The notes below the pieces were generated by a model. The model was not told where the DNA came from. It saw only the letters and a program-made list of their open reading frames with translations, and did no database searches. The position numbers and the translations under genes were made by a program. A stretch of DNA of 64,000 nt from contig NZ_RMVE01000002.1 in NCBI RefSeq assembly GCF_003865345.1, positions 496,001 through 560,000 of the forward strand. Direction: 5' to 3'. Below are positions 56,985-61,100 of this stretch, one piece after another; the first letter of the stretch is position 1; the number at the start of each line of letters is the position of its first letter. This stretch comes from Nonlabens xiamenensis. GTDB taxonomy: Bacteria > Bacteroidota > Bacteroidia > Flavobacteriales > Flavobacteriaceae.

Positions 56985-57659
56985 ATGAAGACCTTATCCT
57001 TACTCCTATTAATGATCATTGCAAGCACTTGCGATACTAAAAGTGCTGAAAAAGATCAAGCATCAAATTCTACCTCAGAGACCCAGTCCACGCAAGCGCC
57101 TGTTGAAGTGCCTAGTCAAGACGGTTTAGAACGCGCCTATTTTGCCAGTGGCTGCTTTTGGTGTGTAGAAGAAATTTATGAATCTGTAAAGGGTGTTGAA
57201 GAAGCTATCTCTGGATACTCAGGTGGTCATACTAAAAACCCAACTTATGAGCAGAGCAACACTGGTAGAACAGGGCATGCTGAGGCCAACGAAATAATTT
57301 ATTATCCATCAGTAGTTGACTTCAAGACTTTGGTGGATGTTTATTTTGCCTCACAAAACATCGAGCAGGTAAATGGACAGGGACCTGATCGAGGCTCTCA
57401 ATACCGCAGTATTATTTTCTATCAAAATGATCAGCAGAAAAAAATCATCGAAGACAAAATTGCTATGCTGGAAAAAGACGGATTGAATGTAGCTGCTGAG
57501 GTTAAGCCGTTCGAAAAATTTTGGAAAGCTGAAGATTATCATCAGGACTACGCCAAAAAGCACCCTGATAATGGCTATATCCAGAATGTATCAATACCTA
57601 GATTTAAAAAGTTTGCTGCTAAGATGCCAGAGGTTATCCGAGAAGATGCCATGCACTAA
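56985..57659 (+). CDS. msrA: Peptide methionine sulfoxide reductase MsrA, exported form
   Basis: 224 aa. Active-site GCFWCVEEIYESVKGVEEAISGYSGG and EVNGQGPDRGSQYRSIIF-like region are intact. The N-terminus (MKTLSLLLLMIIASTCDTKS) looks like a lipoprotein signal, though threonine just before the cysteine is unusual for a lipobox. A polar linker of about 30 residues follows. Likely repairs oxidised envelope proteins. A -7-like TAGTTTTG lies at 56960-56967. Confidence 0.92.
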   Translation: MKTLSLLLLMIIASTCDTKSAEKDQASNSTSETQSTQAPVEVPSQDGLERAYFASGCFWCVEEIYESVKGVEEAISGYSGGHTKNPTYEQSNTGRTGHAEANEIIYYPSVVDFKTLVDVYFASQNIEQVNGQGPDRGSQYRSIIFYQNDQQKKIIEDKIAMLEKDGLNVAAEVKPFEKFWKAEDYHQDYAKKHPDNGYIQNVSIPRFKKFAAKMPEVIREDAMH

Positions 57660-58921
57660 TCAAATCCGCCAAAATAGTACGCGACATAAACCAAAGAGAG
57701 TAGGCTTAGTACGACAATCCCCACGACGCTGAGTAGTTTCATCCATAGCTTTGGTTGAGCAGCTGCTGGAAAATCTTTACGGGTGACCAAAATATAGTTG
57801 AGCACGGCCACCACAGGAGCAAAAAGGAAAGATAAAATTGTTGCAATGTCCACGATCAACAAAAAACCTTTGGGTTGGTCTTTTAATAACCAACACAACA
57901 AAAATGCACCCAGGGCAGTCATAAGTAAAGCAGACAGGTAAAATCGATCTCCAAGGGAATTACCATTTCTGAAGGCTACTTCCCAACTTCGTTGAAAGGC
58001 TCTGGAATAGCCGTCCAATACCCCAATACTGGTACCAAACATGATACAAAAAGCCGCTACTGCAATGAGGTAATACGACCAAGCTCCCATGGATTCAGTG
58101 AATAAGGAGATGACCTGGTTGGCAAAACCACCACTCCCTCCCATCACTGGTATCGAGGTTCCATAAACCAAGTACGCACCCAACGTCAAAAACATCACCG
58201 CAAGTGCCGCACTGATCCAATAGCCCAGACTAAATTCTCTTACAGCTTCCTTGACTGTAGAATGATAGCCAGATGTTTTTCGTTTTTCTAGTGTCCACAA
58301 ACTATTCCAGGTGCTGAGATCAACCGCGGTAGGCATCCAACCCATCAACGCTATGGCAAAAGGAATCGTGGATACCACCCAAAGCGATGGCTCTTCAAAA
58401 CCAGGCTCGATAGATACTGGCCCTTTCCACAACACCATCAAAAAGGCTATTGCAGTACAGCCAATCATAACCAAACCAACCACCTTAATCACTTGGTCCA
58501 ATGCTTTAAACCTTCCAAAGGCAAGAATTAAAAAGCAGATCATGACGGTAAGTACTAAGGGTAACCAAGAGAGGTCGGTCCATTGCTTGAATCTAAACAA
58601 TTCTTCCATAAAAACTGCGGTAACTTGAAATACAGCAGCACTGACAAAGAATAAACTGATCAGCATGACCAAAAAATAAGCGGCAATTGCCCATATACCT
58701 AACTTACGATAGCCGTCTATTAAACTCTTCCCGGTAGCGGCAGCGTAGCGGGTACCATATTCAAAAAATGGAAATTTGAGCAGGTTGATCAGGATAATTG
58801 GCATCAAAAAGCCAAAACCATACATCATTCCAGCGCGGGTACTTTGCACTAAATGACTTACCCCTATGGCTGTACTGGCGAAAATAAGCCCAGGACCCAA
58901 GACCTTATAAAATCCTTTCAT
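57656..58921 (-). CDS. Nramp-related transporter lacking the canonical metal-site motifs
   Basis: 421 aa, about eleven membrane helices. The overall Nramp pattern is clear (GPGLIFASTAIGVSHLVQSTRAG in helix 1, AATGKSLIDGYRKLG after helix 2). The DPGN motif that binds metal in helix 1 is replaced by GVSH, and the MPH motif of helix 6 by ALMGWMPTAVD. The substrate is thus uncertain: divalent metal is not assured. Overlaps msrA by four nt; divergent from asnB. Confidence 0.8.
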   Translation of the reverse strand: MKGFYKVLGPGLIFASTAIGVSHLVQSTRAGMMYGFGFLMPIILINLLKFPFFEYGTRYAAATGKSLIDGYRKLGIWAIAAYFLVMLISLFFVSAAVFQVTAVFMEELFRFKQWTDLSWLPLVLTVMICFLILAFGRFKALDQVIKVVGLVMIGCTAIAFLMVLWKGPVSIEPGFEEPSLWVVSTIPFAIALMGWMPTAVDLSTWNSLWTLEKRKTSGYHSTVKEAVREFSLGYWISAALAVMFLTLGAYLVYGTSIPVMGGSGGFANQVISLFTESMGAWSYYLIAVAAFCIMFGTSIGVLDGYSRAFQRSWEVAFRNGNSLGDRFYLSALLMTALGAFLLCWLLKDQPKGFLLIVDIATILSFLFAPVVAVLNYILVTRKDFPAAAQPKLWMKLLSVVGIVVLSLLSLVYVAYYFGGFD

Positions 58922-58956: not shown

Positions 58957-59144
58957 AAACTTGGTCTTAACTAAAAATGACAATTATTTATAGATTAGAC
59001 GAAAACTGGTCTAAAAATGTAGTTCAGATGTTGAGTTACCACTGTTCAGTGGTATTCCTACAAGTGAAGCCAAGTAAGTATAATTTTAATTTTTTTTAAT
59101 TAATTATTTTTTTATCGAAGCTTATTTATATATTTACCTCAGTT

Positions 59145-59201
59145 ATGACAACCAACAATAATTTCGGATTCAATAATAATTCTTTGCCCAAGGTGAAGTA
59201 G
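59145..59201 (+). CDS. asnB leader peptide (Asn-rich, 18 aa)
   Basis: ATG 59145 to TAG 59199-59201 encodes MTTNNNFGFNNNSLPKVK: six asparagines in two runs of three (codons 4-6 and 10-12). It ends 68 nt before asnB and just before a terminator. Its composition matches the amino acid made by the enzyme downstream, the classic sign of an attenuation leader. Translation itself is not shown. Confidence 0.8.
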   Translation: MTTNNNFGFNNNSLPKVK

Positions 59202-59256
59202 GATCTGATATATAAACTAACTCAAGGCCTACTTTCACGAGTAGGCCTTTTTTATT
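59193..59256 (+). promoter_or_regulatory. asnB transcription attenuator
   Basis: Terminator: AAGGCCTAC (59224-59232), loop, GTAGGCCTT (59241-59249), then T-rich. Competing antiterminator: GTGAAGTAGG (59193-59202), which includes the leader stop codon, pairs with CCTACTTTCAC (59228-59238) over 10 bp with one bulged T. A ribosome stalled on Asn codons leaves the first strand free and allows read-through; one that reaches the stop covers it and lets the terminator form. Confidence 0.8.
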
Positions 59257-59269
59257 TAAAACTTTTATT

Positions 59270-60931
59270 ATGTGTGGAATCGTAGGAATGTTCAACTTAA
59301 AGAAGGACAGTCAGGAACAAAGAGAAAGCGTACTGGAACTCTCAAAAAAATTAAGACACAGAGGACCTGATTGGTCGGGAATCTACTGTGGTGAAAACGC
59401 TATACTCGCTCACGAAAGATTGACCATCGTCGATCCCCAATCTGGTGGACAACCATTATACAGTCCTGACGGTAAAATTGTTTTGGCCGTAAATGGAGAG
59501 ATCTATAACCACCAGGACATAAGAGCAAAATACCCAAACTACCAATTTAAAACCAAGTCGGATTGTGAAGTCATTTTGGCACTTTATGAAGACAAAGGCG
59601 TCGATTTTCTGGATGACTTGACTGGTATGTATGGATTCGCATTGTATGACAGTACCAAAGATATATTCTTGTGCGCTCGCGATCACCAAGGAATTATCCC
59701 TTTATATTACGGGACGGATGAAATGGGACAATTCTATGTAGCTAGCGAACTCAAAGCACTGGAAGGAACCTGTAATGATATAGCACCTTTCCCTCCTGGA
59801 CACTATTACTATAGTGTGGATGCCGATTTTACCCCATGGTTTGACAGGGATTGGAAGGACTATGCTGCAGTACGTGAAAACAGTAGTTCAGTAGAAGAAC
59901 TTAGAAAAGCTATGGAAGATTCGGTGCACAGACACCTGATGAGTGATGTACCTTATGGTGTTTTGTTGTCTGGGGGATTGGACAGCTCAATCGTGAGCGC
60001 AGTCGCCAAAAAATACGCGGCCAGAAGAATTGAATCCGGCGATTATGCCGAAGCCTGGTGGCCACAGCTGCATTCTTTTGCTATTGGACTGGAAGGCAGC
60101 CCGGATTTGGATGCTGCTCAAAAGGTAGCAGATCATATTGGCACTGTGCATCACAGTGTAAATTTTACGATTCAAGAAGGCCTGGATGCTATAAAGGATG
60201 TCATCTACTATTTAGAAACTTATGATGTGACCACTGTACGCGCTTCTACCCCTATGTATTTACTGGCCAGAGTAATCAAATCTATGGGAATCAAAATGGT
60301 GCTTTCAGGTGAGGGTAGTGACGAGATATTCGGTGGTTATTTGTATTTCCACAAAGCCCCCACTGCCGAAGAATTTCACAAAGAGACCGTAAGAAAATTG
60401 GAAAGTCTCCACCTTTATGATAACCTAAGGGCCAACAAATCTTTGGCGGCATGGGGAATCGAGGGAAGAGTGCCTTTCCTGGACAAGGAATTTATGGACA
60501 TTGCCATGCGACTCAACCCTAAAGATAAAATGTGTGGCAACGGTAAAATGGAGAAACATATTCTAAGAGAAGCTTTTGAAGACTATCTGCCTAAAAGTGT
60601 AGCCTGGAGGCAGAAAGAGCAATTTAGCGATGGCGTAGGATACAATTGGATCGACACTTTAAAGGAAGTAGTAGAAAAAGAAGTAACAGACGAAATGATG
60701 GAAGCAGCCTCCTTTAAGTTTAAAATCAATCCACCGCAAAGCAAGGAAGAATATTATTACCGCAGTATTTTTTCTCAGCACTTCCCCAGCGACGCAGCGG
60801 CCAGTTGCGTACCTTCGGTTAAGTCGGTAGCTTGTTCGACACCGATTGCCCTGGAATGGGATGAGGCCTTTAAAAATATGAATGATCCGTCTGGGAGAGC
60901 GGTCAGTGGTGTACACGATGATGGATATTAA
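59270..60931 (+). CDS. asnB: Asparagine synthase (glutamine-hydrolysing)
   Basis: 553 aa. Class II glutaminase with nucleophile Cys2 (MCGIVGMF), followed by the synthetase domain with the ATP loop LLSGGLDSSIVSAVAKKYA and LSGEGSDEIFGGYLYFHKAP. Full AsnB length. Makes asparagine from aspartate, glutamine and ATP. Control is by the attenuator directly upstream. ATG follows the terminator tail by 13 nt. Confidence 0.96.
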   Translation: MCGIVGMFNLKKDSQEQRESVLELSKKLRHRGPDWSGIYCGENAILAHERLTIVDPQSGGQPLYSPDGKIVLAVNGEIYNHQDIRAKYPNYQFKTKSDCEVILALYEDKGVDFLDDLTGMYGFALYDSTKDIFLCARDHQGIIPLYYGTDEMGQFYVASELKALEGTCNDIAPFPPGHYYYSVDADFTPWFDRDWKDYAAVRENSSSVEELRKAMEDSVHRHLMSDVPYGVLLSGGLDSSIVSAVAKKYAARRIESGDYAEAWWPQLHSFAIGLEGSPDLDAAQKVADHIGTVHHSVNFTIQEGLDAIKDVIYYLETYDVTTVRASTPMYLLARVIKSMGIKMVLSGEGSDEIFGGYLYFHKAPTAEEFHKETVRKLESLHLYDNLRANKSLAAWGIEGRVPFLDKEFMDIAMRLNPKDKMCGNGKMEKHILREAFEDYLPKSVAWRQKEQFSDGVGYNWIDTLKEVVEKEVTDEMMEAASFKFKINPPQSKEEYYYRSIFSQHFPSDAAASCVPSVKSVACSTPIALEWDEAFKNMNDPSGRAVSGVHDDGY

Positions 60932-60982: not shown

Positions 60983-61039
60983 ATGAAAAGAACAACACAA
61001 CATACTTGGTGGTGGAATAATACAGCTCAAAAGCCGTAA
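60983..61039 (+). CDS. trp leader peptide (three consecutive Trp codons, 18 aa)
   Basis: ATG 60983 to TAA 61037-61039 encodes MKRTTQHTWWWNNTAQKP. Tryptophans are codons 9-11 (61007-61015). Placed between a promoter-like pair and a terminator upstream of trpE, it is a classic trp leader. Confidence 0.88.
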   Translation: MKRTTQHTWWWNNTAQKP

Positions 61040-61100
61040 AGTTGCCCCTATGTTGAAATCATAAAAAAGGTCTACTTCACGGTAGACCTTTTTGTTTTTA
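61034..61100 (+). promoter_or_regulatory. trp operon attenuator
   Basis: Terminator: AAAGGTCTAC (61066-61075), loop TTCACG, GTAGACCTTT (61082-61091), T-rich tail. Competing pairing: CCGTAAAGT (61034-61042), spanning the leader stop, with ACTTCACGG (61074-61082), 8 of 9 pairs. A further hairpin CAACATA (60998-61004) with TATGTTG (61049-61055) would enclose the Trp codons. Stalling at Trp would favour the antiterminator. Confidence 0.78.

Follow-up and report, generated by a model that had tools for sequence, protein, structure and literature searches.

A putative asparagine-codon transcription attenuator upstream of asnB in Nonlabens

Leader-peptide attenuation is a textbook device, and the amino acids for which it is known make up a short list. 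The trp attenuator of enterobacteria is ribosome-mediated, and is built from a 1:2 helix, a 2:3 antiterminator, and a 3:4 terminator. The T-box riboswitches found with asparagine genes in Gram-positive bacteria bind tRNA directly and have no leader ORF.

Two further systems lie close to the locus described here. The uORFC-8-2 motif before cysS in Rhodobacterales is presented as a computationally identified attenuator whose leader codons specify one amino acid (PMC8632094). For Flavobacterium psychrophilum, 'strong clues' of leader peptide attenuation ahead of operons for amino-acid biosynthesis are reported (PMC9723704). The string 'asparag' occurs 0 times in the main text of that report, and its supplement, which lies outside this count, may list asparagine cases.

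In this study, we analyzed a stretch of 64,000 nucleotides of DNA (hereafter, the window) in which a short ORF rich in asparagine codons precedes the gene for asparagine synthase B. From its sequence features and modelled folding, this upstream region very probably operates as a ribosome-mediated transcription attenuator that senses charged tRNA-Asn.

The asnB leader region

Along the DNA, the leader is followed by an intrinsic terminator and then by asnB (Table 1). An initial annotation made from the letters of the sequence had proposed an 18-aa leader with two asparagine triplets, a terminator, and an antiterminator strand that includes the leader stop codon. All three are present, and the antiterminator pairing is found exactly as it was described.

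Table 1. Features of the asnB leader region and of the adjacent trpE leader region, in window coordinates
Feature	Position	Strand	Remarks
Promoter-like -7 box TATATTTA	59129..59136	+	TANNTTT[GA] type; box counts in text
Leader ORF, 18 aa, MTTNNNFGFNNNSLPKVK	59145..59201	+	ATG at 59145, stop TAG at 59199-59201; equivalent in 21/22 same-genus genomes
Asn codon block 1	59154..59162	+	AAC AAT AAT
Helix A, 5' strand	59160..59168	+	1:2-type; codons between the Asn blocks
Asn codon block 2	59172..59180	+	AAT AAT AAT
Antiterminator strand GTGAAGTAGG	59193..59202	+	Spans leader stop codon; pairs with 59228-59238
Helix A, 3' strand	59204..59212	+	Bases after leader stop
Intrinsic terminator	59224..59253	+	11-bp stem 59224-59234 / 59239-59249; T run 59248-59253
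Antiterminator partner CCTACTTTCAC	59228..59238	+	Terminator 5' arm and loop
asnB, glutamine-hydrolysing asparagine synthase B	59270..60931	+	NF006949
Trp leader and terminator before trpE	60983-61092		Leader MKRTTQHTWWWNNTAQKP 60983-61039; trpE 61113

Six of the 18 leader codons specify asparagine. The gene downstream scores 921.9 bits against the asparagine synthase B model (cut-off 499, E 1.2e-277), and its closest named relatives are Nonlabens sequences with 89% and 82% identity. The codon run in the leader therefore matches the product of the gene that it precedes, asparagine codons standing ahead of an asparagine synthase.

The RNA spanning 59140-59270 folds at -28.7 kcal/mol (z = -3.97), a value as low being reached in 0 of 200 shuffles, and the fold contains the 11-bp hairpin (59224-59249) with T after it. 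The terminator lies between the leader and the gene, and a strand that competes for its 5' arm lies where a ribosome at the leader stop codon would cover it. This competing interaction comprises 10 pairs between GTGAAGTAGG and CCTACTTTCAC, with one bulged U and the stop codon within it. The adjacent upstream ORF, which encodes 421 aa (57656-58921), lies on the opposite strand and is divergent, so the terminator does not end the transcript of that ORF. It sits instead between a promoter-like box and asnB. A search of the whole window with 4227 Rfam families, T-box included, gave 0 matches at the gathering score, and a T-box or other Rfam element was rejected on this ground.

The promoter-like assignment of TATATTTA depends on the sequence TAnnTTTG, which we take to be the Bacteroidota -7 box consensus. 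A TANNTTT[GA] element starts 12-16 nt 5' of the leader ATG in 21/21 same-genus loci; among 333 control windows, each 45 nt long, 11 contain one. With this consensus, the position of the box would place the transcript start only a few bases 5' of the leader ATG.

Reinitiation has been proposed for gene-proximal leader ORFs (PMC4833913), a precedent for a leader that acts on the translation of asnB, by coupling or by masking of the start site, and not on transcription termination. At this locus, however, the leader stop codon is 68 nt from asnB with a hairpin and a T run in between, and the partner of the competing strand is the terminator arm. We consider this translational reading very improbable compared with transcription attenuation.

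Conservation and alternative pairing within the genus

The same-genus set comprises 23 genus-level genomes, the genus being taken as Nonlabens (Flavobacteriaceae). The asnB gene is present in 22 of these, and 21 of the 22 carry the leader with two asparagine blocks at the equivalent place. Each block has 2-4 codons, the blocks are a few residues apart, and the asparagine total is 6-8 per leader. The distance from leader start to asnB is 121-131 nt in 20 of 21 loci and 142 nt in L125, for which the script set the asnB start a few bases too early. The sole same-genus asnB that is devoid of an asparagine leader and terminator is that of L127, where the region 5' of the gene looks unrelated by eye, and where trpE retains its Trp leader.

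An ATG ORF of 8-25 aa with at least 6 asparagine codons was counted when located no more than 250 nt from asnB. All leader-bearing same-genus loci have such an ORF (21/21), whereas 195 other asnB upstream regions yield none, and shuffling of the same-genus regions produces one in 3 of 4200 cases. The 195 control regions had been cleared of loci in which an asparagine leader was already found, and the highest count remaining among them is 5.

A structure alignment of 21 same-genus sequences (20 distinct) reveals covariation in helix A, which joins codons between the asparagine blocks to the bases after the stop codon. In this helix 90.0% of cells are paired, and four of the nine pairs show two-sided changes, seven cells in all. 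Two-sided changes and the covariation score are as high in 0 of 500 shuffles, and further pair types are as many in 42 of 500. All slid registers pair less, and the swap test gives 0 of 10000 permutations, with the L001 segment cut too late for this test, an error that biases against the helix. The window's own sequence forms seven of the nine pairs as standard pairs.

The terminator is paired in 98.7% of cells with one two-sided pair change, a number equalled in 55 of 500 shuffles. The antiterminator is paired in 99.2% of cells across the 21 sequences and exhibits one-sided changes only; among these same-genus sequences it has no two-sided change and does not rise above shuffles (361/500). 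Its swap test likewise yields no signal within the genus (7068/10000), because the strand hardly varies. Helix B, a small hairpin enclosing the stop codon, is 83.7% paired; it is not above shuffles on the fixed alignment (189/500) and has modest support from the swap test (123/10000). Within the genus, it is thus helix A that carries the covariation evidence.

The consequences of ribosome position were modelled by folding transcripts that were cut 5' of the terminator 3' arm and from which the ribosome-covered part was taken out. The edge of the E. coli ribosome lies 16 nt from the P-site codon, and this figure was used to set the edge. In these models the probability that the terminator arm is paired upstream, averaged over the 21 sequences, is 0.25 without a ribosome, 0.84 with a ribosome on asparagine block 1, 0.88 on block 2, and 0.07 at the stop codon. 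For block 2, the shuffled control averages 0.51, and the observed value is reached by 0-9 of 100 shuffles per sequence. In the window's own sequence, the antiterminator is likewise what the truncated transcript with a stalled ribosome folds into best. L124 is an exception at the stop codon, where the value is 0.48 and the antiterminator is not clearly excluded.

For the window's own sequence the corresponding values are 0.87 (no ribosome), 0.89 (block 1), 0.89 (block 2), and 0.00 (stop). Upstream pairing without a ribosome is 0.5 or lower in 17 of the 21 sequences, whereas the window's own sequence, at the 0.87 just noted, favors the antiterminator in this state. The initial annotation had held that ribosome position alone decides between the two structures. 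In most relatives, however, a helix within the leader would occupy the antiterminator strand in a third, untranslated state, which the models do not give for the window's own sequence, and the statement is therefore slightly too simple.

Equilibrium folding of full-length RNA gives the terminator as the best fold for all 21 sequences, whichever stall state is modelled. Since the terminator is favored in every equilibrium state, the switch would have to act during transcription, under kinetic control. The modelled equilibrium folding is what a kinetic switch would predict, yet it is no proof of switching.

Asparagine leaders elsewhere in Bacteroidota

Outside the genus, we scanned 181 asnB upstream regions drawn from 103 family genomes, each of a different genus, and from 78 named contigs. 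Species may overlap between the two sets, and two of the regions were too short to scan. The family asnB matches came from 109 genomes, with four upstream regions left out. One of those four (G131, which is also L231) has an asparagine-rich ORF, MIFTFNNNNSNCLFAS, before an asnB frame with two stop codons; a terminator was looked for at this locus and none was found.

Thirty of the 181 regions have, in their last 250 nt, a hairpin that resembles a terminator and folds at -8 kcal/mol or lower, and in 18 of these 30 it is preceded by an asparagine-containing leader. The 18 comprise 16 family genera, a Flavobacteriaceae MAG (L071), and a Bacteroidales MAG (L035). The leaders of the 16 genera (16/103) carry 3-9 asparagine codons and belong to a second architecture. 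These 16 and L071 share the sequence stop-CARAAACTTGT or near variants, paired with CAAGTTTC, CAGGTTTTTG, and similar sequences that sit in the terminator arm and loop.

The antiterminator of this second architecture is 99.3% paired, and one pair is A-U in some sequences and G-C in others (6/17 sequences). Only 7 of 500 shuffles are as high on cells, paired share, and score, and the swap test with 16 sequences gives 5/10000. Two-sided support for the antiterminator is found in the second architecture only. In the corresponding terminator, five of nine pairs have changed on both sides (3/500 shuffles; 0/500 on cells and score). In 11 of 16 sequences CAAGT, CAGGT, or CAAGC occurs within 10 nt 5' of the start codon. 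These bases are complementary to those after the stop codon, and it is plausible that the two form a 1:2 helix; the swap test for this second-architecture helix yields no signal (2327/10000). The TANNTTT[GA] box is present in 3 of the 16 by the same search as above.

A blind test was made with model R2, which begins 6 nt 5' of the stop codon and therefore contains no asparagine run. Among 299 family genomes, the best 30 matches to R2 (E <= 4.4e-12) are all located before asnB. Sixteen of these 30 come from genomes outside the model, nine of them from genera outside the model. At all 16 matches in new genomes an asparagine-containing leader ends, as determined by script for 15 and separately for L275, and the leader of L281 (MFLNKNSNYQP) is a weak case. 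At E <= 0.01, some match to R2 is found in 146 of the 299 genomes. With model R1, nothing above 41.9 bits was found outside the genus in 149 family genomes.

These data bear on whether an ORF with asparagine codons simply happens to lie ahead of an ordinary terminator. AAT is common in AT-rich DNA, and the arms of the shuffled folding control pair upstream at the 0.51 given above. Against such a coincidence stand the rarity of ORFs with 6 asparagine codons in shuffled regions, the conservation in 21/22 same-genus genomes, the covariation of helix A, and the blind test with R2, and the divergent upstream ORF leaves a plain terminator nothing to end. We give a coincidence next to no credence; the chance ORF was rejected by the control counts, which already contradict it.

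Beyond the family, draws at the level of order and phylum gave an asparagine leader with a terminator in 2 of 36 asnB loci (L216 and L232), both from f9, another family of the order. In f9, three of four asnB genes have an asparagine leader, L318 among them and L317 not, and the terminator arm can by eye pair with the leader end. Most asnB genes surveyed have no such leader, the share with one being 18/181 outside the genus and 2/36 in the wider draws.

Leaders of this kind also precede asnA (TIGR00669), which we take to encode an enzyme of a different kind from AsnB. Among 149 family genomes, 10 have a match to this gene, which scores above 330 bits in five; three of the five (L242, L243, and L244) have asparagine leaders with terminators. 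No asparagine leader was seen by eye at L245, L246, and four lower-scoring asnA loci, absence in the family being judged without a terminator scan; L250, L314, and L315 were left out. At class level, asnA was found in 12 of 198 genomes, and two of 11 loci (L305 and L309, which belong to one genus) have asparagine leaders with terminators, the ORF of L309 entering the hairpin by a few bases. Most asnA genes surveyed have no asparagine leader. As judged from the sequences of both genes, the leader, where present, tracks the product asparagine rather than one gene family.

Two features of the asnA loci may be noted separately. L244 and L242 each carry two asparagine-rich leaders in tandem, each followed by a terminator, and in L242 no stop codon separates the second leader from its terminator. 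A recurring end motif, R-K-A/I-V or alike, is seen in L305, L309, L242, and L244, apparently because those codons make up the antiterminator strand (by eye).

The checks proposed at the outset for the asnB leader can now be read together. The leader is kept across nearly all of the genus, helix A covaries there, antiterminator and terminator pairs are compensated in the second architecture, and the search of relatives for N-rich ORFs has uncovered asparagine leaders in other Bacteroidota, before asnB as well as asnA. The proposal has thus withstood two of the refuting outcomes named in the initial annotation, a leader that is not kept and stems that lack compensatory changes.

The comparison of leaders also addresses the nature of the signal. 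TnaC senses tryptophan, and by analogy the leader product could be a nascent-chain arrest peptide that responds to free asparagine or another small molecule and not to the supply of Asn-tRNA. The anatomy alone does not discriminate, as a stall of any cause near the asparagine codons would give an identical antiterminator. However, arrest would require a conserved peptide, and residues outside the asparagine runs vary, while the runs themselves differ in number and length (NNNxxxNNN, NNNNNN, NNNNNNNNN, NNFNTNNSNN). Both asparagine codons are used, AAT 204 times and AAC 42 times in 37 leaders, and the end motif of the asnA leaders (R-K-A or alike) seems by eye to reflect the antiterminator strand. 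An arrest peptide retains only a slim chance relative to a sensor of charged tRNA-Asn.

Model and comparison with known attenuators

In the model for attenuation by charged tRNA-Asn, the transcript would start at or a few bases 5' of the leader ATG, and the first ribosome would trail RNA polymerase. When Asn-tRNA is ample, a ribosome at the stop codon would cover the antiterminator strand, the terminator would form, and asnB would be off. Under a shortage of Asn-tRNA, translation would stall in the asparagine codons and the strand spanning the stop codon would stay free to pair with the emerging 5' arm of the terminator, such that polymerase would continue into asnB. If no ribosome is present, a helix would hold the antiterminator strand in most relatives and termination would be favored. 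In Nonlabens this helix would join bases within the leader to those 3' of the stop codon; in the second architecture its 5' strand would precede the start codon and its 3' strand would again follow the stop codon. The start site, the ribosome footprint, the stalling, the termination, and the response to asparagine are elements that we infer as part of this model. Leaders of this type could serve as ready reporters for asparagine starvation.

A Trp attenuator is located next door. The Trp leader before trpE (Table 1) has a WWW leader and a terminator nearly identical in sequence to that of asnB, and differs in its Trp codons and, by eye, in the register of its antiterminator. A WWW leader is present in 21/21 same-genus loci with a readable asnB end, L127 included. 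In the whole 3.68-Mb genome, the pattern common to the asnB and trpE terminators has no exact match besides these two, and the Trp leader region is the second-best R1 match in the window (42.2 bits, E 1.1e-5).

The likeness of the terminators suggests a shared origin of the asnB and trp attenuators. Outside the terminators, the asnB-trp similarity has a mean of 6.75 versus 3.97 for shuffles (sd 0.36). In 9 of 20 single genomes, however, at least 13% of shuffles do as well outside the terminators, and a common origin therefore stays a suggestion. A broader scenario, in which asparagine attenuators in Bacteroidota had several origins on two synthetase genes and the one in Nonlabens is a copy of the trp attenuator with Trp codons replaced by Asn codons, is tentative and on balance rather unlikely. 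If true, it would represent an attenuator that was shifted to another amino acid by a codon swap. As neighbors with an attenuator apiece and similar terminators, asnB and trpE offer a natural comparison for how attenuators change specificity.

The initial annotation had professed no familiarity with a description of asnB control by an asparagine leader, and our literature search, whose coverage leaves the survey by Lopatovskaya et al. (2010) outside, likewise recognised no asparagine leader before asnA or asnB. The attenuation proposed for F. psychrophilum (PMC9723704) concerns the same bacterial family. The uORFC-8-2 motif, as described in PMC8632094, resembles the asnB leader in that its leader codons stand for a single amino acid and the gene behind them provides the corresponding aminoacyl-tRNA, and differs in that the amino acid is Cys, the hosts are alpha-proteobacteria, and the gene encodes a tRNA synthetase rather than an amino-acid-making enzyme. 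T-box riboswitches are alike in sensing tRNA charging and in their control through a terminator switch.

A close match in design is the enterobacterial trp attenuator, which shares a short leader with codons for the end product, the 2:3 and 3:4 pairings, and a putative 1:2 helix. Unlike that system, the leader described here carries asparagine codons, transcription in Nonlabens probably begins within a few bases of its start codon, the 1:2 helix is placed otherwise, and the antiterminator strand overlaps the stop codon. Thus, the mechanism would be of the known trp type; what appears to be new is that it is specific for asparagine and that this recurs in Bacteroidota. An asparagine version before both asnB and asnA would extend the range of amino acids to which attenuators of this kind are dedicated.
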